DNA from: Kocuria sp.
Lineage (GTDB): Bacteria > Actinomycetota > Actinomycetes > Actinomycetales > Micrococcaceae
Assembly (NCBI RefSeq): GCF_030538595.1
Contig: NZ_JAUNTS010000012.1
Coordinates: forward strand, 1 to 64,000
DNA length: 64,000 nt
Direction: 5' to 3'
This document shows positions 9,277-33,746 of this stretch, piece by piece. Position numbers and translations under genes: made by a program. Position 1 is the stretch's first letter; every line of letters starts with the position of its first letter. The notes beneath the pieces were generated by a model that did no database searches, was not told the origin of the DNA, and saw nothing but the letters and a program-made list of their open reading frames with translations.

Positions 9277-9282
9277 GTCCGA

Positions 9283-13654: not shown

Positions 13655-13858
13655 TTATCGCGAATGGTCGGTGTCGGTGGGCCCTGAGCGGTCCTTGAAG
13701 CCTCCGTTCATCAGGAGCATTACGACAAAGATGATAGCCAGTATGGCAAGGAAGATGCCTGCCGTGGCTAGTCCTCCTTGGATCAGTAAGAATTCACCGA
13801 GGAGGAACATTACTATGGCGCCAACAGCGCCAATGACGAGCCATGGGGTAATACGCAT
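13655..13858 (-). CDS. Small two-helix membrane protein
   Basis: A 67-residue protein with two hydrophobic segments (about residues 6-25 and 30-52) joined by GEFLLIQGG and a charged C-terminal tail. AAGGAGA stands eight bases ahead of ATG 13858. It lies after the CPBP protease gene, separated by 231 bases that contain two small hairpins (13986-14004 and 14041-14082), so it may be outside the main operon. Small membrane proteins at cluster ends sometimes confer self-immunity; nothing in the sequence proves this. Confidence 0.55.
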   Translation of the reverse strand: MRITPWLVIGAVGAIVMFLLGEFLLIQGGLATAGIFLAILAIIFVVMLLMNGGFKDRSGPTDTDHSR

Positions 13859-14089
13859 GGTGAATATCTCCTTGATAACGAGTGAGACCTCAAATCAAGT
13901 TTATCAATCAGTGAGGCTGTAGATTCTGGGTTCACGACCCATGCTAGCGGGCATCTTCGACCTGAGTCCAACAATGACATGCCTACCACGCCCCTAGTGC
14001 GTGGCGCGGCTTGTGGAGCAGCCCCAGGCGCTGACTGTAGGTTCACGCTTGTTTGTCTCCGTGTCGTCTCACCTGCGTGAACCGTTTGC

Positions 14090-14749
14090 TCACCACTCGT
14101 CTGTGGGACGGCGTTGTACAAGGCGCGTGCCGGGTGAGGGGCGATATGTGTGCCGTCGCAGGCACATAAATGCGTTCCAGCTCACATGGAAAAAAACCGC
14201 TATGAGGAGGCCTAGAAGCCAAGTGGTAACGGCCATGAAGAGGGAAAAGATGGCGATGAAACCGAGGCCGCGACGACCATACCGCTCCAGGTGAATTGCG
14301 GTGAACCCCACCGTGATGATTATATGCGCCCACGGCATTGGGAGGCCGAGGTAAGCCAGGGATGAGATGCCCGCGCCGCGCCAGAGCACCTCCTCGGCAC
14401 CTCCTCCAAGACAGAGCAGGAGGCGGCGCATACGTCGAGGCTCGTGGAATGACGCGTCGTCCTGTGGTAAGGCTGCAAGGATAGTCACTGCGGTAGCCAG
14501 TCCTGCGAAGATCAGTGGATTCATAGGGAAGATCGCTGGGGGTGGCCCGATCGTCGAGAACACAATTATCCCCGCCACCGTAGCTAGTAAGACAGTACCA
14601 CCGGTATATAGAAGCTCAATCGTTGATCTGCTTAGCCGGCCTCGCATCAAGGGTGAACCTAGGGTGGAGGATATTCCACGCTCTGTGTAGACGATATGTG
14701 TGGCGCATGCGATCACGCCGATCCAAGCTGAGACCATGGGCGGGTTCAC
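14090..14749 (-). CDS. CPBP-family (CAAX/ABI) intramembrane protease
   Basis: A 219-residue polytopic protein with the three motifs of the CPBP glutamic protease family: EEVLWR (Glu119, Glu120, Arg124), a His at 153 in FTAIHLERYG, and FHVSWNAF (His188, Asn192). Members in streptolysin-type clusters (SagE) are thought to remove the leader peptide or give self-immunity. The start lies two bases from the stop of the SagB-like gene upstream in the same operon. The last enzyme gene of the leftward operon; best candidate for leader removal, since no other peptidase is in the cluster. Confidence 0.8.
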   Translation of the reverse strand: MNPPMVSAWIGVIACATHIVYTERGISSTLGSPLMRGRLSRSTIELLYTGGTVLLATVAGIIVFSTIGPPPAIFPMNPLIFAGLATAVTILAALPQDDASFHEPRRMRRLLLCLGGGAEEVLWRGAGISSLAYLGLPMPWAHIIITVGFTAIHLERYGRRGLGFIAIFSLFMAVTTWLLGLLIAVFFHVSWNAFMCLRRHTYRPSPGTRLVQRRPTDEW

Positions 14750-14751
14750 TA

Positions 14752-15573
14752 TTAGGTTGCAGTACCTAGGACTACGGAGTGCAACGGGGCGCTGTCAACG
14801 CCGTCCAGCCCGGGAATTAGCGCAGTTACCGGGTCGTCGAAGAACCCACCCCAAATACGACACTGGAGTCCGGACGCCTCTGCTGCAAGTGCTATAGATT
14901 GCGCGAGGTGACCCGCCTCCAGGTAACAGAACCTGGCCCCCCGCTGCCCGTATTTGATCCGAGACCGGGCGAACATGGCCGTTATGACGATGATGATGCC
15001 AGCATCAGACACAAGGGCATCATCCCCGTAGGCGTTAACGATATCGTGTCTGTCGGCATGACCCAGATCAGCGAGGTCGTGCCTAAACGGATCGTAGTAG
15101 AGGCATCGTTCCGTGGGGAGCGGGTCAGCGCAGTTCAAAGTGAGGAAGAAGACATCCAGGGGGTAGAGCGCCCCGGCCGACGGAGTGGGTCGGAAGCCGA
15201 CGATGCTTCCGGTGCGGTAAATAACACGGTAACTGTGATGCAGTACATTCGCCAAAGCCTGGACGGTGAGTGGTGAGCGACCGAATTCATCAGCGCTTTT
15301 CCTCCGTAGCACGATGTTTTGGAAGGTGTCCTGCGTGCGTAGGTCAGGTTCGGGTAAGGGAACGGATGGGCGCAGCGTGTACCGTCGACCAGCGCGCAGG
15401 GTCATCCTACGTAGCGCCTCCGACGACTGGAGGCGCTCCATGCCGGGCAGGTCAGTTCGGAGCGTCGCCTTGGAGATCTTGGAGGCCTCGAGGAAGCACT
15501 CTGATGCATCACTGTCTGAGGGGACACCGTCTGGGTAGACGACGTCCTCGAGGTTTGTGCTGTCGTACTGCAT
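14752..15573 (-). CDS. SagB-type FMN-dependent azoline dehydrogenase
   Basis: A 273-residue nitroreductase-fold protein of the SagB-type dehydrogenase family, which oxidises thiazolines/oxazolines to thiazoles/oxazoles with FMN. Motifs: VLRRKSADEF (about residues 88-97; FMN phosphate-binding Arg), RPTPSAGALYPLDVF (128-142), and a late YLEAGHLAQSIALAA helix typical of the family. It lacks the long N-terminal extension of some relatives. ATG 15573 follows AAGGAG. It is 11 bases downstream of the YcaO gene, which fits the BCD enzyme set of TOMM/LAP clusters. It indicates that the final product carries at least some aromatic azoles. Confidence 0.85.
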   Translation of the reverse strand: MQYDSTNLEDVVYPDGVPSDSDASECFLEASKISKATLRTDLPGMERLQSSEALRRMTLRAGRRYTLRPSVPLPEPDLRTQDTFQNIVLRRKSADEFGRSPLTVQALANVLHHSYRVIYRTGSIVGFRPTPSAGALYPLDVFFLTLNCADPLPTERCLYYDPFRHDLADLGHADRHDIVNAYGDDALVSDAGIIIVITAMFARSRIKYGQRGARFCYLEAGHLAQSIALAAEASGLQCRIWGGFFDDPVTALIPGLDGVDSAPLHSVVLGTAT

Positions 15574-15584
15574 CGAGGGGCTCC

Positions 15585-16907
15585 TTATGGAAATGGATGG
15601 GGGATGGGGTTTAAATCTGTCGTGTTCCTATCACGGGGTGGTGCGGTTGGGTCGGATAAGCGTGGATGTCCGAGGTAACGATGTCGGTAGGAGACATCGA
15701 GTGGCTGGAGGTCGGGAGAATAGGCCCGGACGACATATCCACCCATCTCCCGGACGTCGGGTGAGGTCACATCCATCGAGTACAGATTTATGCCTTGTTC
15801 AGCAAGCCGTGATGCGATCTTTCGGACGGCGGTCCTAGAGGGCATATTCAGCCTGGGCAGCTCGTTGAGGGAACGGATATTAGGGTTGGCGTCAAGAAAG
15901 TCTAAATGTTGGTACATGTCCCAGCGAGAAAAGAGGTCAATGTGGTCTTCGAAGCTGAGGATGGCGTTGTCCCAATCGTCTCCAATGCGCTCGTCGGCAC
16001 CTCGTCGACGACGCTGTTCGGCCCACGACCGGCTGCCAACTGCCTCGGTGATCGCCTTCATGCACGCTATCTCGGGTAGCAGTGCTGCTGATGCTCCGAC
16101 ACCAATAGGCCCAGGTTCGTCATTACCGGGCCTGGCGATGCAAGCCACGACGGGTAAACCGGTGAAACTGCTCAAGTCCATCACATGGACCCGCAATCCC
16201 GTGGGTTCAAGATGCTGTTCCGTGAATCGTGCAAGCCGTATATCGGACTGTAGGTCGATTCGGGGCATGGAGAGGCGGTGGTACCACGTGAGCATGAATG
16301 CATCGCGCTCTACCAGTTCCATCATGGCGGACACGAGTGCGCGGTAGGGATCTGTCCCGAAGGCAAGACCGTTCGATGTCGGAGTGTGGATCCGTGGTGC
16401 ATCGGGGATGACCCGCAGGAAAGCGAGTTGCGCTGGGATGAGGACACGGCGGCCAGTTGCGACCTCGGCAGTCTCCAGCCAAGGCGTCCTGGTGTCAGCG
16501 TCCAGTTGCGTGAGGCCGAAGCCATCTCTGCCTAGCTGTGCGTCGGTAAAGAAGCGGATGCGGTCAGGGTCCAGATGTACAAGACCGGCAGCGCTGAGGC
16601 TCCGAGCGCTGCCGTGGATAAACCGGCTGGGCTCGAGCCATGCCGCACTGTACCGCTCTAAGGCTTCACCCGTCGCGGCCCCCAACGCCTTGGAACGACT
16701 CGTTCCCTCGCCTCCGCTGTCACGTGTTACGGCGGTTCCGATGAGCGCTTCAGGTCGACTGATCTTCGCGCCCGCAGAGATGATGTGTAGGTCGGACACG
16801 TCGTGGAGCCGGAAATAGGTCTTCTGGACTATACCCACCAGGTGGGATCGGTAAGCCTGAAGCTGCGCTGGCCCCAACCCGTCGGTGTGCACTGTCTCGT
16901 CATCCAT
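15585..16907 (-). CDS. Azoline-forming YcaO cyclodehydratase (SagD-like)
   Basis: A 440-residue ATP-dependent YcaO protein that activates backbone amides so that Cys, Ser or Thr cyclise to azolines. ATP/Mg-binding motifs are intact: KALGAATGEALERYSA (Glu81, Glu84, Arg85), SAMMELVERDAF (Glu197, Glu200), and ITEAVGSR (Glu288). The C-terminus ends PIPHPFP, the PxPxP tail known in azoline-forming YcaOs and needed for catalysis. Its start overlaps the E1-like gene by eight bases, so the two subunits are co-translated. AGGAGAG precedes ATG 16907. Function as a cyclodehydratase follows from the family and neighbours; substrate is inferred to be the peptide encoded at 33621-33746. Confidence 0.9.
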   Translation of the reverse strand: MDDETVHTDGLGPAQLQAYRSHLVGIVQKTYFRLHDVSDLHIISAGAKISRPEALIGTAVTRDSGGEGTSRSKALGAATGEALERYSAAWLEPSRFIHGSARSLSAAGLVHLDPDRIRFFTDAQLGRDGFGLTQLDADTRTPWLETAEVATGRRVLIPAQLAFLRVIPDAPRIHTPTSNGLAFGTDPYRALVSAMMELVERDAFMLTWYHRLSMPRIDLQSDIRLARFTEQHLEPTGLRVHVMDLSSFTGLPVVACIARPGNDEPGPIGVGASAALLPEIACMKAITEAVGSRSWAEQRRRRGADERIGDDWDNAILSFEDHIDLFSRWDMYQHLDFLDANPNIRSLNELPRLNMPSRTAVRKIASRLAEQGINLYSMDVTSPDVREMGGYVVRAYSPDLQPLDVSYRHRYLGHPRLSDPTAPPRDRNTTDLNPIPHPFP

Positions 16908-17907
16908 CGCTCTCCTCCGCCGGTGCTGGGAACCAGATCTGAGGTGATCCTGTACCTCTCGCGGGGGAACAGGATGGGCAGCGTGGAACGCGCAATACCT
17001 TGTGCGTCGTGACGGATAACTCCGCGCGAGTGGTGGTCAGGGCGAAGAGTATTCCAGGTGCCGATGTCGCGCCGTCAAACGCGTCAACCGCGAAGTCGAG
17101 GACTATCTGCGAGATCATCCCTACGGTAAACCTGTGACTGAACGAGTTGGCACTGGAGGCTGGGCCTCGCGTCAGGAGCGTAGCCTTCTCCAGGTCCTTG
17201 GACACGGCGTCGTCTGGAAAGTTTGAAGTACGTCGTAGGGAATAGCACATAGCGCAGGCCGTTGTTCCGGGTACGATCATGGGTCCGACAAGTGCCCGGG
17301 CCCCGTCGGATGGTTGAACTAGAAGCCATGGTGTTCCATCGTCCAGCTCGAGGCGTGCCATGTTGAACTGATCTATGCTGCGGGCGTAGTCGCCCTCGGA
17401 CACGACAATTATGAGGTCCGCCTTAGTTTGGGACTGTGTCGTGCTTGAACTGACATAAACCCCGAGGTTTTCGACGGCCTCCAGAATAGCCGCACTCACT
17501 GCTCCGTGTCCGACGACGGCTACTCTGGTTCGTCCGAGGAGGCTAACGTATTCTTCCAACGAGAGGGTGCGCGAGGCGCGTCGGCGCATGTCGAAGTAGG
17601 TGTCTAGCGCCCTCGTCGCTTGCTCGTCCGAAGGGTGTCTCACAGCGAAGCCGAGCGTCTCGAGCGCTTTCATAAGCTCAGCTGCGACAGATGCCTCTGG
17701 CGTATCGAGTTGTCCTGGGAGCTCGACCTTACCCGTAGCCTGACGGAAGAGCTTTGCGGCAACATCGACGACGGTGGAATTTATAATTCGGTGAATGGTG
17801 AGGCCATTCTCGAGAAGCAGCGCGCGGGTCTCGGTTAGCCGAACACTGAGAGAAGGGTCCAGTAACCAGACTGTGTCGTCGGGGTCCGTTGTGCGTGAAG
17901 TTGACAT
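16900..17907 (-). CDS. E1-like leader-binding cyclodehydratase partner (TOMM C/F-type protein)
   Basis: A 335-residue protein. The region around residues 125-225 (RTRVAVVGHGAVSAAILEAV, then LVGPMIVPGTTACAMC) has the ThiF/E1-like pattern of the TOMM cyclodehydratase partner family. Two CxxC pairs (Cys218/221 and Cys310/313, the latter in VPRCPSC) form the expected structural zinc site. The N-terminal 90 residues probably form the winged-helix RiPP recognition element that binds the leader peptide. ATG 17907 follows AAAGGAGG; an upstream in-frame ATG at 17967 is less likely. It lies between the glycosyltransferase and YcaO genes in one operon. It hands the precursor to YcaO. Confidence 0.8.
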   Translation of the reverse strand: MSTSRTTDPDDTVWLLDPSLSVRLTETRALLLENGLTIHRIINSTVVDVAAKLFRQATGKVELPGQLDTPEASVAAELMKALETLGFAVRHPSDEQATRALDTYFDMRRRASRTLSLEEYVSLLGRTRVAVVGHGAVSAAILEAVENLGVYVSSSTTQSQTKADLIIVVSEGDYARSIDQFNMARLELDDGTPWLLVQPSDGARALVGPMIVPGTTACAMCYSLRRTSNFPDDAVSKDLEKATLLTRGPASSANSFSHRFTVGMISQIVLDFAVDAFDGATSAPGILFALTTTRAELSVTTHKVLRVPRCPSCSPARGTGSPQIWFPAPAEESDG

Positions 17908-17966
17908 ACGAGTCCTCCTTTGGATCGGGCGCGATCGGGGTGATGAGAGGCTAATCCTCGCACTCA

Positions 17967-19232
17967 TTAGTGCAGATGGGGGAGCTCAATCATGCGTTCC
18001 AGTTTGGGCACTAGGCTATGAGGTGGTGGTATGCGTTCAAGGTGCTCCTGGAGACGGTGGGCGGCAGCCCTGTGCGATGGATTCGTCAGCAGAGTGTTTA
18101 CGCGGTCTTCGATAGCGCTTGCGGTGAGGTCCTGTGCATGAACAGCGAGCGCCGCTCCTGTCGCCACCATGTCCTCCGCCACGCGCGACCCGCCCCACAT
18201 GTCGAGGCCGTCTCCCACGTACAGTTGTGGCAGACCATGCTTCACCACGGTGCCAAGAGTGTTGATGCCGAAGTGGCTTATAACGACCGCACAGTGGCGC
18301 AGGATGAGGTCAAGGGGCAGGTATTCGTACACATGCACATTTCCAGGTATATGGATTCCTTGTAGCTGGTCTGCGTTGAGGGTAGCTACGACGTCGATAT
18401 CGAGTCGGCTCAGACCCGTTAGGATCGCCTGCAGGTGTGGGGACGGGAGACCATACGCTCGCGAAGAGTAACCGAGTGTCACGCAGACGACTGGGCGTTT
18501 TGACGAGAGAAGCCAATCAGTGTCGATTACGCCGCAAGCATTCATGGGGATGAACCGACAGGGAAGATGCAGGCCGTGGTTGACTCTCCTTGCAAGGGGA
18601 GGAGGTAGGGGGTCGATAGTTGCCATGCCGAACAGAAGCTCGTGAAAGGCACCTTCCCCGTCGGGCACTTCAACACCGGGCGCGAACCTTGATCGCAACC
18701 ATCGGGACAGTGGGTTTTCCTGAGTAAGGCCGTGTCTTTGATGACTCTCCACCATGGCCGCGAAATAGTCTGGCCCGAAAAGCGTCCGGACGTGGGGAAG
18801 ATTAAGCGTCTGAGCCACGACAGGCCCGGTATAGGTGAGCGCGTCCCAGATGATCATGTCCGGTCGCCATGCTTGGGCGAAAGCCAGTGTGTCGGCAAGC
18901 ATCTGGTCGTCTGCCAGTTGGCCCGATATGAACTGACCATAGATGGTCAAAGCAGTCTGTGTGTACGCGGGAGTTAGGACTTGGGGATCACTCTCGGCGA
19001 TGTCCGCGGGTGCGTGGCGTCCGGGCAAGGGGCCGCCGCGCTCAACATAGCTGTTGAGCTCCAGAGGGTGTCCTACTTCAATCCCGGTGAGACCAAGTGA
19101 TCGCACCTCCGGCATAATGTCCGATTGGCTGGCTATGCAGACCTCGTGCCCGGCAGTGCGCAGGGCCCACGCGGCAGGAGCCTGTAGCTGCAGATGTGGC
19201 AGTGAGGCGAATGTCGTGAACATGAATCGCAT
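17967..19232 (-). CDS. EryCIII/DesVII-like TDP-sugar glycosyltransferase 1
   Basis: A 421-residue GT-B fold protein. The N-terminus MRFMFTTFASLPHLQLQAPA and the stretch PRELIGHEV-type AGHEVCIASQ are typical of macrolide/aminosugar glycosyltransferases (GT1, DUF1205-containing). The nucleotide-sugar region reads SHFGINTLGTVVKHGLPQLY and GDGLDMWGGSRVAEDM, the degenerate counterpart of the usual HHGGxGT...DQ motif. It follows AGGAGG at the start. Together with the ketoisomerase, aminotransferase and N-methyltransferase genes it should attach an aminodeoxyhexose to the modified peptide; acceptor residue unknown. It lies between sugar genes and azole genes, in one operon. Confidence 0.8.
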   Translation of the reverse strand: MRFMFTTFASLPHLQLQAPAAWALRTAGHEVCIASQSDIMPEVRSLGLTGIEVGHPLELNSYVERGGPLPGRHAPADIAESDPQVLTPAYTQTALTIYGQFISGQLADDQMLADTLAFAQAWRPDMIIWDALTYTGPVVAQTLNLPHVRTLFGPDYFAAMVESHQRHGLTQENPLSRWLRSRFAPGVEVPDGEGAFHELLFGMATIDPLPPPLARRVNHGLHLPCRFIPMNACGVIDTDWLLSSKRPVVCVTLGYSSRAYGLPSPHLQAILTGLSRLDIDVVATLNADQLQGIHIPGNVHVYEYLPLDLILRHCAVVISHFGINTLGTVVKHGLPQLYVGDGLDMWGGSRVAEDMVATGAALAVHAQDLTASAIEDRVNTLLTNPSHRAAAHRLQEHLERIPPPHSLVPKLERMIELPHLH

Positions 19233-19267
19233 TACTGGAGCCTCCTAGGGCGGGCAAGCCAGTTAAC

Positions 19268-19759
19268 TTAGGTTGCACTGCGTCCTATTGCTGCTGTTGC
19301 CAGGCGGAACTCATCGTATGAGCTGATGTAGTCATCAGGGTCGTACGGTAGCGAGGCGAGTACTGCGCAAATCGAGCCAGGAGAGGAGGAATGTAGACGC
19401 CGCCATACCAACGGTCCGACTTTGAGGGCATGCTTGCGTGAGTTGAGCAGGAAGCTCTCTTTCCGACTTCCGTCATCAAGTTCCACGGTCATGGATCCAT
19501 GGAGACAGAGGATCAATTGGTGAAGCCTCCGATGCGCATGGTTCCCACGCTCAACATCCTCACGCTCCGTGTAAAGGAAGTAGACACGTTGCAAGTCGAA
19601 GTCAGGGTCCTGGCTGAGCCCATCTGGAACGACTACAATGCATCCACGTTCGTCGAGGATTTCACCGACGTCAATGATTGACCATGGGTGCTGAACCGTT
19701 AGATCGCGCGTGACGCGTTCAGCTGTTGTAGGGGGTTCCGGCACTTGTGGTGACGTCAT
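19268..19759 (-). CDS. TDP-4-keto-6-deoxyhexose 3,4-ketoisomerase (FdtA/Tyl1a-like)
   Basis: A 163-residue cupin-fold protein of the WxcM/FdtA/QdtA family. The signature RGNHAHRRLHQLILCLHGSM carries the catalytic His pair, followed by DDG...FLLNSRKHALKVGPLVW and the family ending SYDEFRL. These enzymes move the keto group of TDP-4-keto-6-deoxyglucose from C4 to C3, giving TDP-3-keto-6-deoxyhexose ready for transamination. It overlaps the NmrA-like gene by four bases (ATGA). It forms the first cluster-specific step of the aminosugar route; the preceding RmlA/RmlB steps are not encoded here and must come from the host. Confidence 0.85.
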   Translation of the reverse strand: MTSPQVPEPPTTAERVTRDLTVQHPWSIIDVGEILDERGCIVVVPDGLSQDPDFDLQRVYFLYTEREDVERGNHAHRRLHQLILCLHGSMTVELDDGSRKESFLLNSRKHALKVGPLVWRRLHSSSPGSICAVLASLPYDPDDYISSYDEFRLATAAIGRSAT

Positions 19760-20610
19760 CGGGTCCCCTGCTCATCCTCTGGATCTGCAACCTCTGCTGT
19801 CGCTGCTCGGCCTTTGCCTGGCAGGTTGGTCCGTGAGTAGAGCTCCTTGGCAAACTCGTAGGCGTCGGACCAACCGCTACGAATCAGCTGCGAGGCGGGT
19901 CTCGGGCGGCGACCCAGGGCATGGAGGAGGGTATCGTTTGTTTCGATAGCCTCCGGTCCGGTGGAGAAGTCCATGTATTGCGCACGTTGGATGGCCAACG
20001 CTCTGCTGGTGCCCATCCGCTCAACCGCGATCACCATCTGCTCCAGGTCCATTGCCACATAGTGGAACGGTTTACCTGCCTCATTGCTTACGACGCGGGT
20101 AAGCTCACCGGGCGTCAGAGCTTCGGACCCGGTGAGTTCGTACGTCTTGGATCGACGTTCGGGGTCCATGGCTACCAGTGGAATCAGCTCAAGTACGTCG
20201 CGGAAGTCCAGCCATGGCACCGGCATCTCACGCCATGAGGCAAAGATTGACTCGTTGAGCGCGGTACGGATGGAGCCGAGGAACTCTTGGGCAAGCGGCA
20301 CGCAGCGCATGATGACCCACGACGCGGTCGTTGTAGAGATAACTTGCTCCTCAGCGGCCAGGAACTCCCTCTCTGTTTGTGTCGGGTGCTCGCTCCGACT
20401 TCCAGTCGTCAAGATGACGACGAGGTCGTCCTTCGGTAGGTGTGCCAGCTGGTCGCGTATCGGATCGGTCAAGGGCACCAACACATCCACGACGTGCACC
20501 TGGACCTCACCCGTGTCGGGGCCAGCCTTCTTCTCGCCTGCGAGGAACCTATCCTTCAATCCATCAGTCCACTCCAAGGAAGGGCGGAGGGAATGCCAGA
20601 TAATGGTCAC
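19756..20610 (-). CDS. NmrA/atypical SDR-like protein of unknown role
   Basis: About 284 residues. The middle and C-terminal parts are typical of NmrA/HSCARG-type atypical SDRs: SWVIMRCVPLAQEFLG, WLDFRDVLELIPLVAM, and KTYELTGSEALTPGEL. The expected N-terminal GxxGxxG cofactor loop is not visible; the protein begins MTIIWHSLRPSLEW. It may therefore not bind NAD(P), or bind it differently. GTG 20610 is favoured because GAAAGG stands eight bases ahead; GTG 20619 is the alternative. It lies between the aminotransferase and ketoisomerase genes, so a sugar-modifying or regulatory role is possible but unproven. Confidence 0.6.
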   Translation of the reverse strand: MTIIWHSLRPSLEWTDGLKDRFLAGEKKAGPDTGEVQVHVVDVLVPLTDPIRDQLAHLPKDDLVVILTTGSRSEHPTQTEREFLAAEEQVISTTTASWVIMRCVPLAQEFLGSIRTALNESIFASWREMPVPWLDFRDVLELIPLVAMDPERRSKTYELTGSEALTPGELTRVVSNEAGKPFHYVAMDLEQMVIAVERMGTSRALAIQRAQYMDFSTGPEAIETNDTLLHALGRRPRPASQLIRSGWSDAYEFAKELYSRTNLPGKGRAATAEVADPEDEQGTR

Positions 20611-20626
20611 TGAGTGCACCTTTCAC

Positions 20627-21769
20627 TTACTGACTCAATCGTACGATCTCATGGGATGTGGCGGTGAGGGCTTTGATGACCTCATCTATCTCGGTGCCGT
20701 TTAGGTATGGCCCCACGGGCAGCGTGAACGTAGAGTCAAGGAGCTGCTGAGCGAGGCGGGTTGTCTGATGAAGCCTCCAGCGCCCGGCGTAGAACGGCAT
20801 AGCTCCGACCGCTCTGGGGTAATGCTCGCCTGTCTGCACCCCTCTGGAGTGCAGACAACCGCGTACAAGTGGTTTGTGCTGGGTGGTTACGGGGAAGTGG
20901 TGCCAGACAGGTACTCCAGGGGTGTCTGCCCGTGGCGCACTCAACCCATCCAGGTTTTTCAGTGCCTCGGAGTAACGACGCGCTATCGCCGCACGTCGGG
21001 TGTTCCAAGACTGCAGGTGGGGGAGCTTGACGTTGAGGGCCGCGGCTTGCAGCTCGCCTAGGCGTGAGTTTTCGCCGTGCATTTCGATATTGTTTTTGTC
21101 CCTTCCCCCGTACTGTCGAAGCTTCTGGACTGTCTCACGCACCCGTGCATCGTTCGTCACGATTGCGCCGCCGTCACCCATAGCACCTAGGTTTTTCGTT
21201 GGATAGAAGCTGTAAGCGCGTAGCAAGTCGGGGTGCCCTTCCTCCTCGGTCACCAGACCATGAGACTGTGCGCAGTCTTCGATTACCCGTAATCCCTTGC
21301 GCTCGGCAAGTTCACGAAGGGGGCGAATGTCCACAGAATGGCCAAAGAGATGTACCGGCACAACGGCACGTGTGCGTGGGGTGCACGCTTCCTCACATGC
21401 TATGACCCCCATTAGATACGAGCTGATTGTGTACTCCTCGGTATCGCCGTCGCTGCCAACCGGCACAGGGGTGGCCCCGACGGAGTTCACAGCGAGCCAG
21501 GTGGCGACGAAGGTTATGGCGGGGACTAGTACCTCATCGCCTGGGCCCACGCCTGCTGCAATTAGCGCCAGCTTGAGTGCGTCGGTCCCGGATCCGACCG
21601 TAATGCAGTATTTCGCACCAATCTCGGTGGCGAAGCGTTCTTCAAACTCCCGCTCTTCTGGGCCGTTGAGGAAGACGCCTGATTCGATCACCTTAAGGGC
21701 TCGCTGACGTAGGGCGGGGGTGACACCGAGCCGATCATGTAGAACGCCTGCGTCGAACATCGGAATCAT
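20627..21769 (-). CDS. DegT/DnrJ/EryC1 sugar aminotransferase (FdtB/TylB-like)
   Basis: A 380-residue PLP enzyme of fold type I. The internal aldimine Lys192 lies in YSFYPTKNLGAMGDGGAI, and the cofactor Asp165 in RVIEDCAQSHG. The family converts TDP-3-keto-6-deoxyhexose to the 3-amino-3,6-dideoxy sugar, using glutamate. AGGAGG precedes ATG 21769. It is the first gene of the leftward operon. With the ketoisomerase (19268) and the TylM1-like dimethyltransferase (32745) it completes a mycaminose-type route. The region upstream (21770-21960) keeps a small palindrome GTGTAGTACAC but beyond that is IS debris. Confidence 0.85.
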   Translation of the reverse strand: MIPMFDAGVLHDRLGVTPALRQRALKVIESGVFLNGPEEREFEERFATEIGAKYCITVGSGTDALKLALIAAGVGPGDEVLVPAITFVATWLAVNSVGATPVPVGSDGDTEEYTISSYLMGVIACEEACTPRTRAVVPVHLFGHSVDIRPLRELAERKGLRVIEDCAQSHGLVTEEEGHPDLLRAYSFYPTKNLGAMGDGGAIVTNDARVRETVQKLRQYGGRDKNNIEMHGENSRLGELQAAALNVKLPHLQSWNTRRAAIARRYSEALKNLDGLSAPRADTPGVPVWHHFPVTTQHKPLVRGCLHSRGVQTGEHYPRAVGAMPFYAGRWRLHQTTRLAQQLLDSTFTLPVGPYLNGTEIDEVIKALTATSHEIVRLSQ

Positions 21770-22371: not shown

Positions 22372-22559
22372 TCTAGCTGTGATGTCCAGAGAGGTTGTCC
22401 CGACTCGCGACTGTGAGTTCGGCTGACAGGTGAAGAGGCTCTTCGCGATTGAGGGTGTACAGCCTGGCTCTGTGAGTGCGTCTGTGTCGTTGCCCGGGTA
22501 GACGTCGAGGCCTCCCTGAAGATGGAAGTTCCTACACTCTCTATTCGGAAGACCTCGAC

Positions 22560-25582: not shown

Positions 25583-25583
25583 C

Positions 25584-26458: not shown

Positions 26459-26567
26459 TCGACGTCTTCCGGATGGGCCGTGTAGGAACTTCCGTCCTCA
26501 GGGGAACCTCGACCCATTCCAAGCCACCGCCGACCAAACCCCGACTACACTCTCAATTGCGACACTC

Positions 26568-27640: not shown

Positions 27641-28364
27641 TGCGCCCTTCTGTGTTGATGGGTGTGCGGTCCGGCAGGACGTCAGTCAGGTCACTATCGG
27701 GGACTGGCCAGACTCCTATCAGGATATGGCGGCCCGCAGGGCTGCATTTCAAGAAAGTGAGCCGAGCTGACTGACACGTCGCAGACAGGGCAGCAACCAA
27801 GCGGTGGCGCCGGAAGAGCCGTGGGTCAGACCCGCCCACCAGACCATCGTGTGCCCGCTGGGTCGGAGCAGCCACATCCTTCAAAGAGTCAGACCATTCG
27901 ATCCACAAGATCCATAGTGAAGAGCCGAAAAGGCCCGTTGGCTACAGCCATCGATGACGTCGGTCACAGCCATAAGCTGCGCTCGCCTCGCCAGCGGCTG
28001 CTGGCGGCCTACAAGGCCACGCTTAGGCCTGCCTAGATCACCGAGACCCACCAGGAGCTGACCTGACTCGCGGGCTGCAAGGCCCGGCGCTTGGAGCAGT
28101 CGATCATCTGGAAAGCTCCCGACCCCGCCGGCCTCAAAACCCGCGCTGCCTAGCCACTGGTTTCCCAGGGAAAAGTATGTGTGATACCACGTTGACATGG
28201 TCGCGGATGGAGACGCCGTACGCCTGGGGTGTCGGTATGAATAACTACGACTTAGGGGACGTTGCGCCTCGGAGCAATGGTGCTGCGCCAACAGCGATGG
28301 TAGAGTGCGAATGGTTAGGTTCCTGGGAGAAAATGCGGTAAATGAAGGGCTGGAGGCGCAGGTG
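27641..28364. other. IS110 flank and unidentified degenerate sequence
   Basis: The first part is probably the non-coding end of the preceding IS110 copy. Around 27914-28150 the plus strand has a broken coding-like frame (GPLATAIDDVGHSHKL, two in-frame stops, then RRLEQSIIWKAPDPAGLKT) that I do not recognise. The remainder up to 28364 should contain the promoter of the rightward operon. A TTGACA occurs at 28192-28197 but no -10 at the right distance, so the original promoter may have been lost. Confidence 0.4.
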
Positions 28365-29732
28365 ATGAAGGTATTGTTTACATCTTTCGGAGCAAGCACA
28401 CATTTGAGCCTGCTCATGCCATTGGCGCACGCATTTACGCATGCTGGGCATCGGGTTTGTATTGCTAGTCACGCCGATGCGGTGCCTTTTCTCCAAAGGG
28501 CAGGACTTCCCTACGTAATCGTCTCCCCGAAATGGGATAAGAGCGCACTGGAGCAGACGGCAGGCGAGTATTCGCAGGGGCCGCGAGTGCCACCCGAGAT
28601 TGAGACGAGCGCACCGGGCCGATCCTTTATAGATTTCGATGATTCTGAGACCTCGGGGCAGATCGCCGCTAAGCTTGCGGTCCTCGCTTTCTTCGTCTCA
28701 GGTTATATGACGGATGACGCGTTCACGGCGCGGATTTGCGACTTCGCGCGGAGCTGGGATGCAGACTTGGTCGTGTGGGACTCGTTGACCTACGCGGGCT
28801 CTGTTGCGGCTGAGATCGCCGGCGCGACGAGCGTTCGAAGTCTTTTTGGCATCGATCAAGCCTCGAGTCTTCGGCGTCGGTACCAGGAACTTGGTGGGTC
28901 GGGAGACCCTCTGTCGAGTTGGTTGGCCGGGCAGGTGAAGCACCATGGCGGGCGGGTGCTCGATTTAGCGACCGAATCGGACAGGCTCGCATACGGGGAT
29001 CTCACCGTGAACCCGATGCCGGATGGAGTTCATACACCCCCCGATCACGCGAGGATCGATATCGCTAACCCAGGATTCTTCTCCAGTCCCATGCCGAGTG
29101 GCTCCTGGCTGGAGTCAAGGCATAAGGGCGGGCGACCTCGTGTCTGCGTCACCATAGGTCTGTCATCTCGAGAGCATAACCTGAAGATCCCCCCGATTGG
29201 GGTGCTTATGGACGCGCTGCGGGATCTCGACCTCGATGTCTTAGTAACACTCAATGAGGCTGAAGCGCGTAAGGCAGGGTTTTTCCGTGAAGGCTTCTCG
29301 TACACGGAAACGGTGAGCTTCGATGGACTGTTTCCTAGTATTGATCTTGTCATTCATCATTTCGGAACTGGGACATTACTCGCGGCGTACCGCAGCGGGG
29401 TACCACAGATACATTTCGAAGCGCCCGTAGATTACTGGGGTGAGCGTCTCCTCTCTCGTCGACTGCATCAGACCGGCCACGTATGGACGATCGATCACGG
29501 TGCTCTGTCACGGGAGGAGATGAGGGACCTAATCGTGGCCGCGCTCGCGGATCGTTCGGCTCGGGAGCGGGCTTTTGCTAGCCGTGATTCCTACATGGCG
29601 CGTCGATCTCCTTCGGTGGCCGTTCGCGACATCGTCGCCTTCGTTGAGTCGGGCGAACTAATAACGGGGTCCGCTGGGTGGGGCGCTGCGGACGACCCGA
29701 CCCAGGTGCGGCTCGGGGAGGAAACACTATGA
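28365..29732 (+). CDS. TDP-sugar glycosyltransferase 2 (GT1, EryCIII-like)
   Basis: A 455-residue GT-B fold protein. ATG 28365 (MKVLFTSFGASTHLSLLMPL) was chosen because GGAGG lies eight bases ahead; earlier in-frame starts lack one. The C-terminal sugar-binding region reads VIHHFGTGTLLAAYRSGVPQ and EAPVDYWGERLL, again a degenerate form of the HHGG...DQ motif. It is only distantly like glycosyltransferase 1 of the leftward operon, so it may attach a second sugar, use another acceptor, or act as a pair with it. It overlaps the next gene by four bases. First gene of the rightward operon. Confidence 0.8.
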   Translation: MKVLFTSFGASTHLSLLMPLAHAFTHAGHRVCIASHADAVPFLQRAGLPYVIVSPKWDKSALEQTAGEYSQGPRVPPEIETSAPGRSFIDFDDSETSGQIAAKLAVLAFFVSGYMTDDAFTARICDFARSWDADLVVWDSLTYAGSVAAEIAGATSVRSLFGIDQASSLRRRYQELGGSGDPLSSWLAGQVKHHGGRVLDLATESDRLAYGDLTVNPMPDGVHTPPDHARIDIANPGFFSSPMPSGSWLESRHKGGRPRVCVTIGLSSREHNLKIPPIGVLMDALRDLDLDVLVTLNEAEARKAGFFREGFSYTETVSFDGLFPSIDLVIHHFGTGTLLAAYRSGVPQIHFEAPVDYWGERLLSRRLHQTGHVWTIDHGALSREEMRDLIVAALADRSARERAFASRDSYMARRSPSVAVRDIVAFVESGELITGSAGWGAADDPTQVRLGEETL

Positions 29733-30298
29733 CTAGTGACGATTATGGCGTTCGAGGAAGTAAATCGTCCGTGACCGCCGATGTCACGGGAGGGTCTGTG
29801 ATCGGTGGCGGGGTGCTCGTACCTCGTGAACCTGCACTGCGTGTGGAGCGACGAGTGATCGCCCGATGGATGATTGGCGCGCTCCTCCGCTGGGGGCTCG
29901 TCTTCGCCGTGCTTGCAGGAGTTGCCGCGTTCTGGAATCCGTCTCGAGTGTGGCTGGCAGCGCCGATGCTCGTGATTGCCGCCCTCTTGCTGGTTACTTG
30001 CCTAATCGAGCCATTCTGGCGATATCACGTCCATCGGTGGGAGATTGGTGACAACGCTACCTACACCGTGACTGGGTGGCTCCGCGTTGAGTGGCGAGCC
30101 TCTCCAATCTCCCGGATTCAGACAGTGGACGCTATTCGTGGTCCTATTGACCAGATGCTGGGCCTGTCGACGCTTCGAATTACGACGGCGTCCTCCTACG
30201 GGGCTGTCAACGTTGTTGGGCTTGACGAGAAGACTGCTCGTGAGGCGGCAGAGCGGCTTGCGAGCCTCGCCGAAGTGACTCCAGGAGACGCGACGTGA
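29729..30298 (+). CDS. PH-domain membrane protein (YdbS-like)
   Basis: A 189-residue protein: a hydrophilic N-terminus, two membrane segments (about residues 48-70 and 73-95) and a bPH_2 domain (PF03703) starting after YHVHRWEIGD, with VEWRASPISRIQTVDAIRGP and LGLSTLRITTASSYG. In Bacillus subtilis the YdbS/YdbT pair of this family protects against antimicrobials made by related bacilli. It sits four bases inside the end of glycosyltransferase 2 and overlaps the larger PH protein by GTGA. A self-resistance role in this cluster is inference from family and context. Confidence 0.75.
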   Translation: MTSDDYGVRGSKSSVTADVTGGSVIGGGVLVPREPALRVERRVIARWMIGALLRWGLVFAVLAGVAAFWNPSRVWLAAPMLVIAALLLVTCLIEPFWRYHVHRWEIGDNATYTVTGWLRVEWRASPISRIQTVDAIRGPIDQMLGLSTLRITTASSYGAVNVVGLDEKTAREAAERLASLAEVTPGDAT

Positions 30299-31935
30299 AG
30301 GAGAGCGCGGTGGAACATCGCGGCGTTGTCACACGGGATCAAGTCGAGTGGCAACGCCTGAGCCGGCGGGTTATTTGGATCGACGTCGTTGTTGGTTTTA
30401 TCTTTGCGATCCCGGGATTTATAGCCCTCACCGCTGAGCCTTCGACCGGTGCATTTTGGATGTTGTCATTGATGGCAGCGCTCGGGCTCCTGGCGGCGGT
30501 AGGTGACGCAATCCGGTGGGCGACCACGCGATACCGAGTGACAGAAACAGAAGTTCAGCGCCGAAGCGGCCTATTCGTACGGCGCTCGCGTAGCGTTCAA
30601 AGGGACCGAATCCGTAGCGTTGACACGTACGCTCGTTTGCGGCATCGCCTCGGCAGGATGCGGGTCGTTACGGTCGGAGCGGGACAGCAGGCGACTGCAG
30701 GCGAGGCTGCGTTTGAGCTAAACGCGTTATCGCGAGCCGATGCCTTACGGTTAAGGCAGGAGTTGCTACGGCCCGTCGAATTTCGTCGAGATGTACCCGA
30801 AGCCCGCGAGTCTTCCATGTCGGAAGACGTGGTGTCTGGGGAGAGTCCCGTTTGCGATAATCCGGACCAACTTGGAAGGGAGTCCGGTCCCAGCGGCTTT
30901 GCCGACGTCGATCGTGAGCATGAGGACATATTGGAGACTTTCCGGTGGCACTGGGTGCTCTACAATATGTTCAGCTTTTGGACTGTTGTTATGACGGCCG
31001 GAGTCCTGTGGATCGGATATGGGATCCTGTCCACCTTTGGACTGGACTTGTTCGGCATGGCGGTTGATGTTATTAGCAAGAGCGGTCGGCACCCGTTAGT
31101 GCTCACCGTGGCCGGGCTCGCGGTAGCGATGGTGCTGGGTTCTTTATTCCTCGCTATCAGTTTCATCTTGGAGAATGGGAACTTTCGGCTGGCCCGAGTG
31201 CAGGATGGTGGTCCACCACATCTGAGGACCCAACGTGGTCTGCTGAGCACACGTGAAGTTAACCGAGATGAGACGCGTATGCGCGGCATCTCCATTGACG
31301 AACCGTTGATGTTCCGGTGGATGGGCATGGCGGATACACACGTACTGACCACGGGCCTCAGTCTGGACTCCTTCACCGAGGCGACGGCGCTAGTTCCTCG
31401 GGGGCCGATTTCTGTGGCCCGCCGGGTCGCCCGTGAGGTCGTCGGTGATGCCATAGACGCTAGCCTCCGGCTTGCTCGCCACCCGCGCGCGGCTCTGTTG
31501 CGTCGCCTGAATTGGGCGACACTTATCGTGATTGGCGTCATAGCCTCGCTACTTGTTCCCGTGATTAGTGGGGTGCTCCCGTTGTGGACTATCTGGGCTG
31601 CTGTGGCTTTGTGGCCGGTGACGCTGATTGGTGCAGTAATCGCCTACCGCGCACTCGGATACCGCGTGTACGGAGACTATGTAATCGCGCGATCTGGGCT
31701 CGCGAGCCGCTCCACGGCTGTTCTGAGACGTGATTCGATTAGTACTGTGGCTGTTCGCCAATCACTTCTTCAGCGCTGGTTGGGGCTCAGTACGGTGTCG
31801 TTTATGACCGCTGCGGGCTGGGGAGAATACGACGTTGAAGATATCGATGCCGCGGAGGCCTTCACACTTGCGGATGAGGCTGCACCGGGCGTCATGACTC
31901 CTTTCCTGGAGCGAAGCAATGCAGCACGGACGTGA
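30295..31935 (+). CDS. Multi-PH-domain membrane protein (YdbT-like)
   Basis: A 546-residue protein starting at GTG 30295. It carries three bPH_2 regions, each following a pair of membrane segments: TRYRVTETEVQRRSGLFVRR (about residues 77-100), a middle one near NFRLARVQDGGPPHLRTQRG, and YRVYGDYVIARSGLASRSTA near the end. This is the size and layout of B. subtilis YdbT. It overlaps the YdbS-like gene and the following methyltransferase gene, so all are co-expressed. Probably a membrane partner of the previous protein in self-protection. Confidence 0.75.
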   Translation: MKESAVEHRGVVTRDQVEWQRLSRRVIWIDVVVGFIFAIPGFIALTAEPSTGAFWMLSLMAALGLLAAVGDAIRWATTRYRVTETEVQRRSGLFVRRSRSVQRDRIRSVDTYARLRHRLGRMRVVTVGAGQQATAGEAAFELNALSRADALRLRQELLRPVEFRRDVPEARESSMSEDVVSGESPVCDNPDQLGRESGPSGFADVDREHEDILETFRWHWVLYNMFSFWTVVMTAGVLWIGYGILSTFGLDLFGMAVDVISKSGRHPLVLTVAGLAVAMVLGSLFLAISFILENGNFRLARVQDGGPPHLRTQRGLLSTREVNRDETRMRGISIDEPLMFRWMGMADTHVLTTGLSLDSFTEATALVPRGPISVARRVAREVVGDAIDASLRLARHPRAALLRRLNWATLIVIGVIASLLVPVISGVLPLWTIWAAVALWPVTLIGAVIAYRALGYRVYGDYVIARSGLASRSTAVLRRDSISTVAVRQSLLQRWLGLSTVSFMTAAGWGEYDVEDIDAAEAFTLADEAAPGVMTPFLERSNAART

Positions 31936-32689
31936 TAGGCCTGGGCGTCCTCACTCATGGTGGATAAAACGAATTTCACCAGAATTGGCGGCCCGCGACA
32001 GGTACGAGCAGCGTAACTCTGCGGCATTCGTTCAAGCAGCCTTCAAGGATATTCAGTGCCGAGTAGATGTCGGCTTGGCCTCAACTGTTGTGGACATTGG
32101 TTGCGGCGAGGGAGGGCTGTTGCGCCAGCTTCGCCAGGTTGGATGGGGTAGTCGACATGTGGGTATCGACCCCAACGCGCCAACTGCCCCAAGCAACGGT
32201 GTGGAGTTCATCGTCGCCTATGCGGATGATGTGGTTGACTGGTTGGCGGAGATCACTGACGATGTCACCGTGCTTTCCACTCTCAGCCTCGGCCTCTGGC
32301 CCGATCCTGCCCACACCCTAGTTGCGATCATGGGTGCTGGGCCCAACGTGAAAGGTCTTTTCATTTCTGACTTAGTACGCCCGATGAGTCAGGCTGCTAT
32401 AGATACATGGCTGTCATTTGCTCATGACCCAATCGAGCGCGAATATCTTGAGGATCAAGCTGAGATTCTCTTGACACCTAAGCGCTGGGTGCAGCTAGTA
32501 TCAAGTTTACGATCGACCTACTCGGATCTAGAAGTTCAGTTGACCTCATTTGATGTACGTATGGCTGGTGTTCAGGCTCGTAGTTGGGACCCTATGCATA
32601 CTGAGGATATGGCTGATTTTCTCAGCAATGTAGGTGTACCGACAGGGTTGACGGTCTATTTTTCGCGACTCGACAAAAATTGCTCGTAA
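31919..32689 (+). CDS. SAM-dependent methyltransferase of unknown target
   Basis: A 256-residue class I methyltransferase. Motif I is VVDIGCGEGGLLRQL (about residues 57-71), followed by the acidic end of beta-2, HVGIDPNA. The rest is not close to any family I can name. It overlaps the PH protein gene by 17 bases and belongs to the rightward operon. It could methylate the sugar, the peptide N-terminus or a side chain. Base composition is noticeably less GC-rich than the chromosomal genes. Confidence 0.7.
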   Translation: MQHGRDRPGRPHSWWIKRISPELAARDRYEQRNSAAFVQAAFKDIQCRVDVGLASTVVDIGCGEGGLLRQLRQVGWGSRHVGIDPNAPTAPSNGVEFIVAYADDVVDWLAEITDDVTVLSTLSLGLWPDPAHTLVAIMGAGPNVKGLFISDLVRPMSQAAIDTWLSFAHDPIEREYLEDQAEILLTPKRWVQLVSSLRSTYSDLEVQLTSFDVRMAGVQARSWDPMHTEDMADFLSNVGVPTGLTVYFSRLDKNCS

Positions 32690-32744
32690 ACGGGTAAGAT
32701 TAACAGGCCCTTGCTGGCGCTGTCAGAGGGAAAGGCACAAGATC

Positions 32745-33473
32745 ATGGTCTCATATTCCGGTGATTTCGTCTGGTTGTATGACTTCATACATATGGCGCG
32801 AGGGAAAAATTACAACCGCGAAGCAGCAGAGGTACTCGGGGCAGTCGAGAGCGGGTGGTCTCCTCGGTCGATTTTAGATGTTGCCTGTGGGACTGGGCAC
32901 CACTTAGCGGCGATGCAGGGCCAGGCGGGACTCGTCAGTTCGGATGTCGTTGGCATTGACTTGTCCGTTGATATGTGCAACAAAGCTCGGGCACTCCACG
33001 AGGGTATTGAGTTCCAGTGTGAGGACATGCGAAGTCTAAGGCTCGAAAGGTCGTTTGACCTCGTTACGTGCCTGTTCAGCTCAATCGGACACATGGAGAC
33101 GACGTCCGAGCTCATCGAAGCCATGACTACACTCGGTCGTCATGTGGCACCCGGCGGGTTCTGCGTGGTTGACCCGTGGTGGTCTCCTGAAAATTTCATT
33201 GACGGATACATAGACTCCTTTACTGGCACCTATGAGAACTTTACCGTAACCCGTGTCTCTCATTCCTCGCGTAGAGGACGCCGGGCAGTGGTAGCAGTAG
33301 ACTATCTCGTCACCTCGCCAACGAGCGGGACGCGGCATTTGAACGAGAGACACGAGATTTCCCTATTTACCCAGGATGAGTACGTATCGTCGTTCGAAGC
33401 GGCTGGCATGACAGTTCTCTACCATCCTGAGGCCCTGTCGCCTCGGGGCCTTTACGTTGGAACCCGCCGTTAA
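32745..33473 (+). CDS. TDP-3-amino-3,6-dideoxyhexose N,N-dimethyltransferase (TylM1/DesVI-like)
   Basis: A 242-residue class I methyltransferase. The N-terminal YDFIHMARGKNY, motif I ILDVACGTGHHL (residues 43-54) and CLFSSIGHMET match the pattern of TylM1 and DesVI, which doubly methylate the 3-amino group of TDP-3-amino-3,6-dideoxyglucose to make TDP-mycaminose or TDP-desosamine. Length is normal for that family. The ketoisomerase and aminotransferase that make its substrate are in the leftward operon. Last gene of the rightward operon, with a 55-base gap before it and a 46-base palindrome after it. Confidence 0.8.
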   Translation: MVSYSGDFVWLYDFIHMARGKNYNREAAEVLGAVESGWSPRSILDVACGTGHHLAAMQGQAGLVSSDVVGIDLSVDMCNKARALHEGIEFQCEDMRSLRLERSFDLVTCLFSSIGHMETTSELIEAMTTLGRHVAPGGFCVVDPWWSPENFIDGYIDSFTGTYENFTVTRVSHSSRRGRRAVVAVDYLVTSPTSGTRHLNERHEISLFTQDEYVSSFEAAGMTVLYHPEALSPRGLYVGTRR

Positions 33474-33533
33474 GTGAACGCTTAGGAGCTGCGCCAAGGG
33501 AAATATTCAGTGGTTACGATTGATGTAAAGTAC

Positions 33534-33579
33534 GACGATGGGGTTTCCTGCAACAGCTGTTGCAGGAAACCCCATCGTC
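33534..33579. terminator. Perfect 46-base palindrome between convergent genes
   Basis: Two 23-base arms meet without a spacer (33534-33556 and 33557-33579); the centre reads CAACAGCTGTTG and the outer ends are GACGATGGGG and CCCCATCGTC. It lies between the dimethyltransferase gene and the convergent precursor gene, the normal place for a bidirectional terminator. No T-run follows on either strand and the arms have no loop, which is atypical. Confidence 0.6.
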
Positions 33580-33620
33580 TCGGCAGCGTTACTATAATCG
33601 CTGCCGCAAGGGATCGTTCC

Positions 33621-33746
33621 CTAGGTATTGATGGTACAGTCACCACAGAAGCAGCTGCTTGAGCAATAAGCAGCGATCGGCTCGAAGTAGTTGATCTCGT
33701 TTCCGTGGGTGGTGATTTCGATGGTCATGCTTTTCGGTGCTTCCAT
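33621..33746 (-). CDS. Candidate RiPP precursor peptide with Cys/Ser-rich core
   Basis: A 41-codon gene. The N-terminal part (residues 1-26) is a plausible leader: MEAPKSMTIEITTHG, then NEINYFEPIAA with acidic and aromatic residues. The C-terminal part is YCSSSCFCGDCTINT, with four Cys (28, 32, 34, 37), three Ser and two Thr, all cyclisable by a YcaO. Met7 (33728) is an alternative start with a weak GGAAG ahead. It ends facing the rightward operon and is the only Cys/Ser/Thr-dense small gene near the azole enzymes. It encodes no dehydratase-type thiopeptide motif. The identification rests on composition and position; cleavage site and ring pattern are unknown. Confidence 0.75.
   Translation of the reverse strand: MEAPKSMTIEITTHGNEINYFEPIAAYCSSSCFCGDCTINT

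Follow-up and report, generated by a model that had tools for sequence, protein, structure and literature searches.

A divergent plantazolicin-type gene cluster with interleaved amino-sugar genes in Kocuria sp.

The stretch of Kocuria sp. DNA analysed here (64,000 nt, called the window below; part of contig C23, NZ_JAUNTS010000012.1, in a host genome of 3.14 Mb) holds between positions 13655 and 33746 two sets of genes, one for azole formation on a ribosomal peptide and one for a dimethylated amino sugar. A preliminary description of this DNA had proposed a new class of glycosylated thiazole/oxazole-modified microcin (TOMM). The locus raises the question whether the two gene sets serve one pathway, and which kind of peptide that pathway would make.

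Judged from its genes, the cluster is a well bounded, divergent and glycosylated form of the plantazolicin family. Its likely product, in our view, is a linear azol(in)e peptide of the plantazolicin type that would subsequently be glycosylated with a dimethylamino-dideoxyhexose. What is new is the amino-sugar pathway together with two glycosyltransferases in a plantazolicin-type cluster, a set seen in none of the 12 loci compared. The new TOMM class of the preliminary description is not supported and was rejected, because the enzymes acting on the peptide, the leader of the precursor, the N-methyltransferase MT1 and the gene order all point to the plantazolicin type.

A plantazolicin-type peptide pathway

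All genes named earlier were recovered as open reading frames within 13655-33746 (Table 1). The azoline-type YcaO with PxPxP tail, the E1-like partner with two CxxC pairs, the SagB-type dehydrogenase and the CPBP protease gene each exceeded the cut-off of the respective family model, and the short Cys/Ser-rich peptide gene was found again as the precursor discussed below. Components beyond that list are MT1, the J protein, a pair of bPH2 membrane proteins (29729-31935) and insertion debris at about 22263-28300. The D protein is the sole YcaO match genome-wide, and no second SagB-type match was found elsewhere in the genome.

For comparison we used 12 plantazolicin-type loci of 14-21 kb of DNA each, so that sugar genes farther off could escape, and counted homologues at E<=1e-3. 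Homologues of C, D and B were each present in 12 of 12 loci and those of E in six, and the window carries C-D-B-E in plantazolicin order. The comparison of the gene set with known clusters leads to the plantazolicin family through C-D-B-E, J, the BamL/PznL-type methyltransferase and the leader. In a YcaO tree the window and 11 plantazolicin-type rows group against two outgroups with support 96/97; it should be noted that L044 was left out and that the outgroup branches are long. The window YcaO, 32-40% identical to the plantazolicin-type YcaOs, falls outside the Arg-type loci, with L038 and L039 as nearest rows (39-40% identity).

From its sequence matches the gene at 19756-20619 is the J protein of plantazolicin-type clusters, where J lies directly before C. 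Searches with tblastn gave 6e-24 to J of L039, 7e-19 to L038 and 4e-14 to L044, and of the compared loci L010 and L026 showed no J. A profile of six less close J proteins separated the window protein weakly from chance (26.3 vs up to 24.0 in 100 shuffles); the identity was settled by adding closer relatives, as the profile of seven J proteins gave 40.1, where none of 300 shuffles exceeded 24.3. A weak TIGR03649 match is common to two of six J proteins. The predicted fold gave weakly supported matches to NmrA-like or atypical short-chain dehydrogenase/reductase proteins, from a low-confidence model with a mean predicted local distance difference test score of 58.

The precursor frame (33621-33761, minus strand) comprises 46 codons, with a probable start at 33746 or 33728. 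It matched TIGR04218, 'plantazolicin family TOMM peptide', at E 1.8e-5; its 24.5 bits fall short of the 45 set as curated cut-off. Seven other plantazolicin-type precursors were made into a model, which placed it first among 1002 open reading frames of the window (E 1e-8; runner-up 0.088), and a leader-only model gave 2.4e-5 against 0.021 for the runner-up frame of the window. Since the TIGR04218 hit and the first rank with the relatives' model go together, the precursor match is, on these sequence scores, beyond chance. The leader motif YFEPIAA lies in a 41-residue precursor, and the window leader ITTHGNEINYFEPIAA aligns with the L031 leader ITTHGPSNELFEPMAA. Residue 1 of the core is Tyr, and the Arg typical of the plantazolicin family was not found here. 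The 14 precursors in 11 of the 12 compared loci have Arg in ten cases and Ala or Gly in four at this position, so that Tyr occurs in the window only; in L010 no precursor of plantazolicin type was found. The ten Arg cores are confined to the nine loci that carry an MT1 homologue; the four Ala/Gly cores come from L038 and L039, where no MT1 homologue was found. The combination of a Tyr core, an MT1 homologue and sugar genes is met in the window alone. The MT2 and precursor genes converge on a hairpin without a T run. Its folding energy is -42.3 kcal/mol for each of the two strands (z -9.6 and -9.1), and it is a probable transcription stop.

A glycosylated thiopeptide-like product was considered for this Cys/Ser-rich core, the more so as the glycosylated azole peptides met in the literature are thiopeptides, as far as the available part of PMC11406533 goes. 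We regard this reading as highly improbable, as leader and C-D-B-E order are plantazolicin-type, and as none of the 15 cluster proteins put through the family searches matched a Ser/Thr dehydratase or a pyridine synthase (the search for these did not extend to the remaining genome). Within this scope the earlier statement that both enzymes are absent holds. The Pfam search covered these 15 cluster proteins and five neighbours, and the NCBIfam search ten of the same cluster proteins.

Two methyltransferases are encoded next to each other. The best solved relatives of MT1 are the plantazolicin methyltransferases BamL and BpumL, it matched the PznL-type profile A3 with 98.6% over 137 columns in hhalign, and the alignment with its PznL relatives keeps the invariant W, DL and DQ outside the S-adenosylmethionine (SAM) motif. 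MT2 is the TylM1-like dimethyltransferase recognised earlier: its best match in the PDB, 3pfg, is deposited as dTDP-3-amino-3,6-dideoxy-glucopyranose N,N-dimethyltransferase (dTDP, deoxythymidine diphosphate), and we take it to be TylM1. A TylM1-like role for both enzymes was rejected, as MT1 goes with BamL and the PznL-profile match of MT2 is confined to the SAM motif. The two might still share the sugar work, for instance as N,N-dimethyl- and O-methyltransferase, with the peptide N-terminus left free; this would suit the distance of MT1 from BamL (E 2.4e-4) and a core that begins with Tyr and not Arg. We think it unlikely in view of the BamL and BpumL kinship and the kept PznL-invariant residues, and since MT1 homologues occur in nine of the 12 loci, all without sugar genes. 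Hence we prefer to read MT1 as a peptide N-methyltransferase.

Table 1. Coordinates (window numbering) and supporting matches of the cluster features.
Feature	Position	Strand	Evidence and remarks
E protein, CPBP/Rce1-like membrane protein, presumed leader peptidase	14090..14749	-	PF02517 over cut-off
B protein, SagB-type azoline dehydrogenase	14752..15573	-	TIGR03605 85.7 bits, cut-off 78.4
D protein, YcaO/SagD cyclodehydratase	15585..16907	-	TIGR03604 269.3 bits, cut-off 219; C-terminus PIPHPFP
C protein, E1-like, leader-binding cyclodehydratase part	16900..17967	-	TIGR03882 57.8 bits, cut-off 36.9; CAMC and CPSC
Glycosyltransferase 1 (GT1), VinC/EryCIII type	17967..19232	-	PF21036 and PF06722 over cut-offs; PDB 3wad E 2e-65
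FdtA/QdtA-type dTDP-hexose 3,4-ketoisomerase	19268..19759	-	PF05523 124.8 bits; PDB 2pa7 1e-25; QdtA 4zu7 9e-23
J protein, NmrA-like fold	19756..20619	-	lodged between two sugar genes; tblastn to J of L039, L038, L044
DegT/DesV-like sugar 3-aminotransferase	20627..21769	-	PF01041 303 bits; PDB 2oga 7e-87; QdtB 3frk 2.5e-60
Glycosyltransferase 2 (GT2), VinC/EryCIII type	28305..29732	+	probable start 28365; PF21036 and PF06722 over cut-offs; PDB 3wad 8.5e-47
PH1, YdbS-like membrane protein, one bPH2 domain	29729..30298	+	PF03703, one stretch
PH2, YdbT-like membrane protein, three bPH2 domains	30295..31935	+	PF03703, three stretches
MT1, PznL/BamL-type peptide N-alpha-methyltransferase	31919..32689	+	best PDB match BamL 5dly, E 2.4e-4
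MT2, TylM1-type dTDP-3-amino-3,6-dideoxyhexose N,N-dimethyltransferase	32745..33473	+	PDB 3pfg E 1.1e-57; CalS10 7e-41
Hairpin, 21 perfect pairs	33534..33579	.	between convergent MT2 and precursor genes; no T run
Precursor peptide A	33621..33746	-	leader MEAPKSMTIEITTHGNEINYFEPIAA, core YCSSSCFCGDCTINT; internal ATG 33728 as alternative start

Amino-sugar genes within the operons

The FdtA-type ketoisomerase, the DegT aminotransferase and the two EryCIII-like glycosyltransferases of the preliminary description were all borne out by their Pfam scores. Their best structural matches 2pa7, 2oga and 3wad we take to be FdtA, DesV and VinC. From their predicted activities FdtA, DegT and MT2 would supply a 3,4-ketoisomerase, a 3-aminotransferase and an N,N-dimethyltransferase, and RmlB and RmlA are encoded side by side outside the cluster, on contig C14, both over cut-off. 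None of the 15 scanned cluster proteins pointed to a gene for 4-deoxygenation, hence we expect a 3-(dimethylamino)-3,6-dideoxyhexose with a residue mass of +173.105; the +157 Da per sugar proposed earlier would fit the 3,4,6-trideoxy sugar desosamine instead. Homologues of GT1, GT2, FdtA and DegT were found in none of the 12 compared loci. GT1 scored 303.6 bits against TIGR04516 (cut-off 440), and a plasmid search with GT1 returned 937 records, 924 of them covering most of it and all below 60% identity, with Escherichia and Klebsiella among the hosts.

On the minus strand DegT is followed after 7 bp by J, which overlaps FdtA by 4 bp; 35 bp separate FdtA from GT1, GT1 overlaps C by 1 bp and C overlaps D by 8 bp, with B 11 bp behind D and E 2 bp behind B. 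On the plus strand the order is GT2, PH1 (ATGA overlap), PH2 (4 bp overlap), MT1 (17 bp overlap) and MT2 (55 bp further on). Frames of peptide and sugar genes overlap at J-FdtA and at GT1-C, and as J, C, D, B and E are neighbours in L039, FdtA and GT1 sit inside a conserved order. The left half of the cluster carries J, C, D, B and E of the peptide genes and DegT, FdtA and GT1 of the sugar genes, and the right half MT1 and the precursor together with GT2 and MT2. Because each half thus holds genes of either pathway, we read the halves as one cluster parted by insertion debris.

The insertion sequence pile lies at 22263-28300 and 34192-35031 and consists of IS110, IS481-type and ISL3-like pieces, one of which shares 86% identity with an ISL3 transposase from a Brevibacterium plasmid. 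It invites the reading that the cluster makes an unglycosylated plantazolicin-type peptide, and that the amino-sugar genes belong to another metabolite and were mixed in by insertion sequences. Transposase genes are indeed reported near plantazolicin clusters in the available part of PMC4603692, and rmlA and rmlB lie outside the cluster. The overlapping frames at J-FdtA, at GT1-C and, through PH1 and PH2, between GT2 and MT1 argue against such a mixture, and the 15 scanned cluster proteins gave no sign of another acceptor pathway; we find it improbable. The possibility that sugar and azole genes are unrelated, named at the outset as a refutation, was not borne out, and since genes of the two sets alternate and their reading frames overlap we assign both to one pathway. 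The earlier idea that azole formation and a dimethylamino-dideoxysugar belong to a single pathway is upheld in this form, and no described counterpart was found by title or start of the abstract.

Two further frames lie at the left edge of the cluster. A gene for a small membrane protein of 67 residues, at most a possible member of the cluster, follows E at 13655-13858, with no Pfam match and no homologue in the 12 loci. At 12624-13523 a chimeric frame with a glyoxalase-like start runs into transposase-looking sequence, as if a gene had been interrupted there by an insertion.

The GC content of the two cluster halves is 0.588 and 0.571, below the 0.617 and 0.633 of the flanks, and a close YcaO match was found in none of 26 genus mates (two of them under 80% complete, and one with a YcaO at 25% identity). 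Together these point to horizontal gain of the cluster. The genus mate with another YcaO (genome G019, locus L003; 25% identical to the window's) has a weak E1-like match adjoining it.

The YcaO sequences came from a genome-contig scan, from sampled genomes and from one Corynebacterium plasmid. The scan was keyed on exact short peptides, so that distant relatives escape it. The samples overlap and comprise 27 genomes of the genus, 396 of the order, 395 of the family, 396 of the phylum, 384 of the class and 297 of the family of G1342, each being part of its group and searched with its own E limit, strict in several. In the phylum sample (396 genomes) the only plantazolicin-type YcaO was the window's own. 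Outside the 12-locus count stand loci with a more distant YcaO (L003, L011-L014, L040), L030, which shares a contig with L008, and L034, a genus mate's bPH2 match. Short stretches of counted loci or of the own genome (L001, L002, L004, L005, L027-L029, L032, L033, L035-L037, L041-L043) and other genes of the own genome (L017-L025, L045-L048) likewise stand outside it.

A cluster that has decayed and makes nothing now is rather unlikely in our judgement. The insertion debris sits where the divergent promoters are expected, no homologue of the ABC (ATP-binding cassette) exporter proteins of L008, L026 and L031 was found in the window, and the lack of close YcaO matches in the genus mates could be read in the same direction. 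Against decay, the frames of the cluster are open, several have ribosome-binding sites and conserved motifs, and the insertions lie between genes and none inside them.

Predicted product and its export

In the glycosylated plantazolicin-type pathway that we favour, the C protein would bind the leader at YFEPIAA, and the C-D cyclodehydratase would convert Cys, Ser and Thr of the core YCSSSCFCGDCTINT into azolines, which the SagB dehydrogenase would oxidise to azoles. E would then cut off the leader after EPIAA, and MT1 would methylate the freed N-terminus. RmlA and RmlB may provide dTDP-4-keto-6-deoxyglucose, which FdtA would isomerise, the DesV-like enzyme 3-aminate and MT2 N,N-dimethylate, giving dTDP-mycaminose or its C4 epimer of the ravidosamine type. 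GT1, GT2 or both would put the sugar on the peptide, and with two transferases two sugars are possible. Homology backs the cyclodehydration, the oxidation, the removal of the leader, the N-methylation and the making of the sugar; the action of the transferases on the peptide is inferred.

Further, we suggest the phenol of the N-terminal Tyr as the sugar acceptor, where the cation of the amino sugar would replace that of Arg. Tyr1 appears the likeliest acceptor, at about half the confidence that we place in the pathway. Other plantazolicins owe a positive charge to Arg1, and the amino sugar on Tyr1 would bring this charge back. Plantazolicin-type peptides are hydrophobic. The product is probably antibacterial.

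For export, the neighbouring one-domain PH1 and three-domain PH2 resemble YdbS/YdbT pairs; the start of PH1 was moved from 29678 to 29729 because of a ribosome-binding site and the ATGA overlap. We considered and rejected PH2 as the housekeeping YdbT-like copy of the genome, since contig C3 carries a separate, distant YdbT-like match and a match of this kind was also found in 25 of 26 genus mates (the search was for a YdbT-like gene). Homologues of PH1 and PH2 were found in none of the 12 loci, and an ABC transporter pair was recognised by eye or annotation in six of them (L006, L007, L008, L010, L026 and L031). According to the available text of PMC8657885, a bPH2 pair is required to export enterocin DD14. 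With no homologue of the compared ABC proteins in the window, this precedent, and PH2 as an additional copy, we infer that the YdbS/YdbT-like pair may carry out export and self-protection in place of an ABC exporter. The full picture, a plantazolicin whose Arg1 is replaced by Tyr bearing one or perhaps two cationic dimethylamino sugars and which leaves the cell through the bPH2 pair, is put forward tentatively, as somewhat less likely than not.

Several points weigh against the pathway as drawn. The product is so far a prediction from genes. The precursor scores below the curated cut-off of TIGR04218 and has no clear ribosome-binding site ahead of its start at 33746, and the roughly 6 kb of insertion debris between the operons may have damaged promoters. 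Identity between MT1 and its relatives reaches only 19-25%, and the PznL-type profile picks up MT2 as well, at 95%, though the match spans just 68 columns around the SAM motif. The plantazolicin methyltransferases (PznL) appear to need Arg followed by thiazole in the available part of PMC4603692, and because of this MT1 acting on Tyr is a stretch. The idea of Tyr as acceptor rests on one sequence, with Ser, Thr and Asn as alternatives. In the glycosyltransferases, GT1 keeps His13 and has one His of its nucleotide-binding (donor) motif changed to Ser, and no P450-like activator was found in the cluster although the transferases are nearest to the 'activator-dependent' TIGR04516, under its cut-off; the genome has two P450 matches, both on contig C13. 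VinC, the best structural match of both transferases, works alone. Finally, positions 17 and 97 of the FdtA/QdtA enzyme, which presumably decide the C4 configuration, both read Arg in the window, a mix of the two C4 types, and leave the sugar undecided between gluco and galacto (mycaminose or ravidosamine type).

If the pathway acts as proposed, the cluster would offer a small gene set for asking whether a macrolide-type glycosyltransferase acts on a peptide and what it recognises, and a test of whether a sugar cation replaces Arg.

Comparison with known systems

The window resembles the plantazolicin family of Bacillus and actinobacteria in C-D-B-E order, J, BamL/PznL-type methyltransferase, a leader ending in FEPxAA and a short core. 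It differs in Tyr for Arg at core position 1, in the second half of the core and in its sugar genes with two glycosyltransferases, and further by having the bPH2 pair and no ABC pair. Cox et al. 2015 reported 13 plantazolicin clusters, ten with Arg cores and 12 of 13 with a PznL/BamL-type methyltransferase, in a family network limited at E<1e-54 (PMC4603692, in the part available). The main text of that paper has no word starting with 'glycos'. It includes a Nesterenkonia plantazolicin cluster without methyltransferase (same source and part), which may be kin of the window cluster.

L038 and L039 share with the window the J-C-D-B order (E seen in L039), a leader of the form VTTFGxExVYFEPVAA or alike and a CSSS or SSSS core without Arg; unlike the window they have no MT1 match, no sugar-gene match and four or five Cys near the core end. 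They look like a separate branch of the plantazolicin family. Each has two precursors divergent from J-C-D-B, with Cys-rich ends and no Arg cores (L038:8291-12893, L039:8520-13693). Other loci of the comparison set also deserve mention. In the plantazolicin-type cluster of L031 the methyltransferase gene is followed by two precursor genes, unlike each other in the leader and in the end of the core (L031:14884-15252). A plantazolicin-type cluster lies on a mobilizable plasmid of a Corynebacterium tuberculostearicum skin isolate (L026:8070-14131; NZ_CP073097.1), and its precursor with FEPTAARCSCSSSTCC at 9139-9300 is absent from the (incomplete) PLSDB gene table. In a Thermoleophilia metagenome-assembled genome (L010:8811-11293) a plantazolicin-type YcaO is accompanied by a different-looking candidate precursor that ends in QCSCSCSYLCISLCCSI directly before C.

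The preliminary description knew of no linear azol(in)e peptide carrying a mycaminose-type sugar, and we found no glycosylated one in the literature by title or start of the abstract, mostly outside subscription journals. A characterised cluster with the same gene set was likewise not found at title and abstract level, and no glycosylated linear azole peptide is described in the available parts of PMC5719810, PMC9576775 and PMC7470986. Nocathiacin and persiathiacin are, like the predicted product, azole peptides with deoxysugars, and the persiathiacin sugar genes lie within its cluster (PMC11406533, available part). They differ from the window in dehydratases, a pyridine core and P450s that make the acceptor hydroxyls, none of which was seen in the window cluster. 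Glycosylation is reported to make nocathiacin more soluble (PMC11406533, same part).

Cacaoidin joins N-terminal N,N-dimethylation with an O-glycosylated Tyr in one ribosomal peptide, as far as the available part of PMC11447909 describes it. The predicted window product would likewise carry a dimethylated N-terminus and a glycosylated Tyr together, with the difference that cacaoidin is a lanthipeptide made by lanthionine chemistry. The cacaoidin sugar is a disaccharide without an amino sugar. For the membrane pair the closest likeness is DdE/DdF of enterocin DD14, again a one-domain and a three-domain bPH2 protein in a bacteriocin operon; unlike the window product, enterocin DD14 is leaderless and unmodified, and an ABC transporter is encoded alongside.

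The TylM1, DesV and FdtA pathways with the VinC and EryCIII transferases use the same enzyme set for dTDP-3-dimethylamino-3,6-dideoxyhexose as the window, which differs from them in having no P450-like activator beside the transferases and a predicted acceptor that is a ribosomal peptide and not a macrolide or macrolactam. If the prediction is true, a ribosomal azole peptide has borrowed the amino-sugar machinery of the macrolides.

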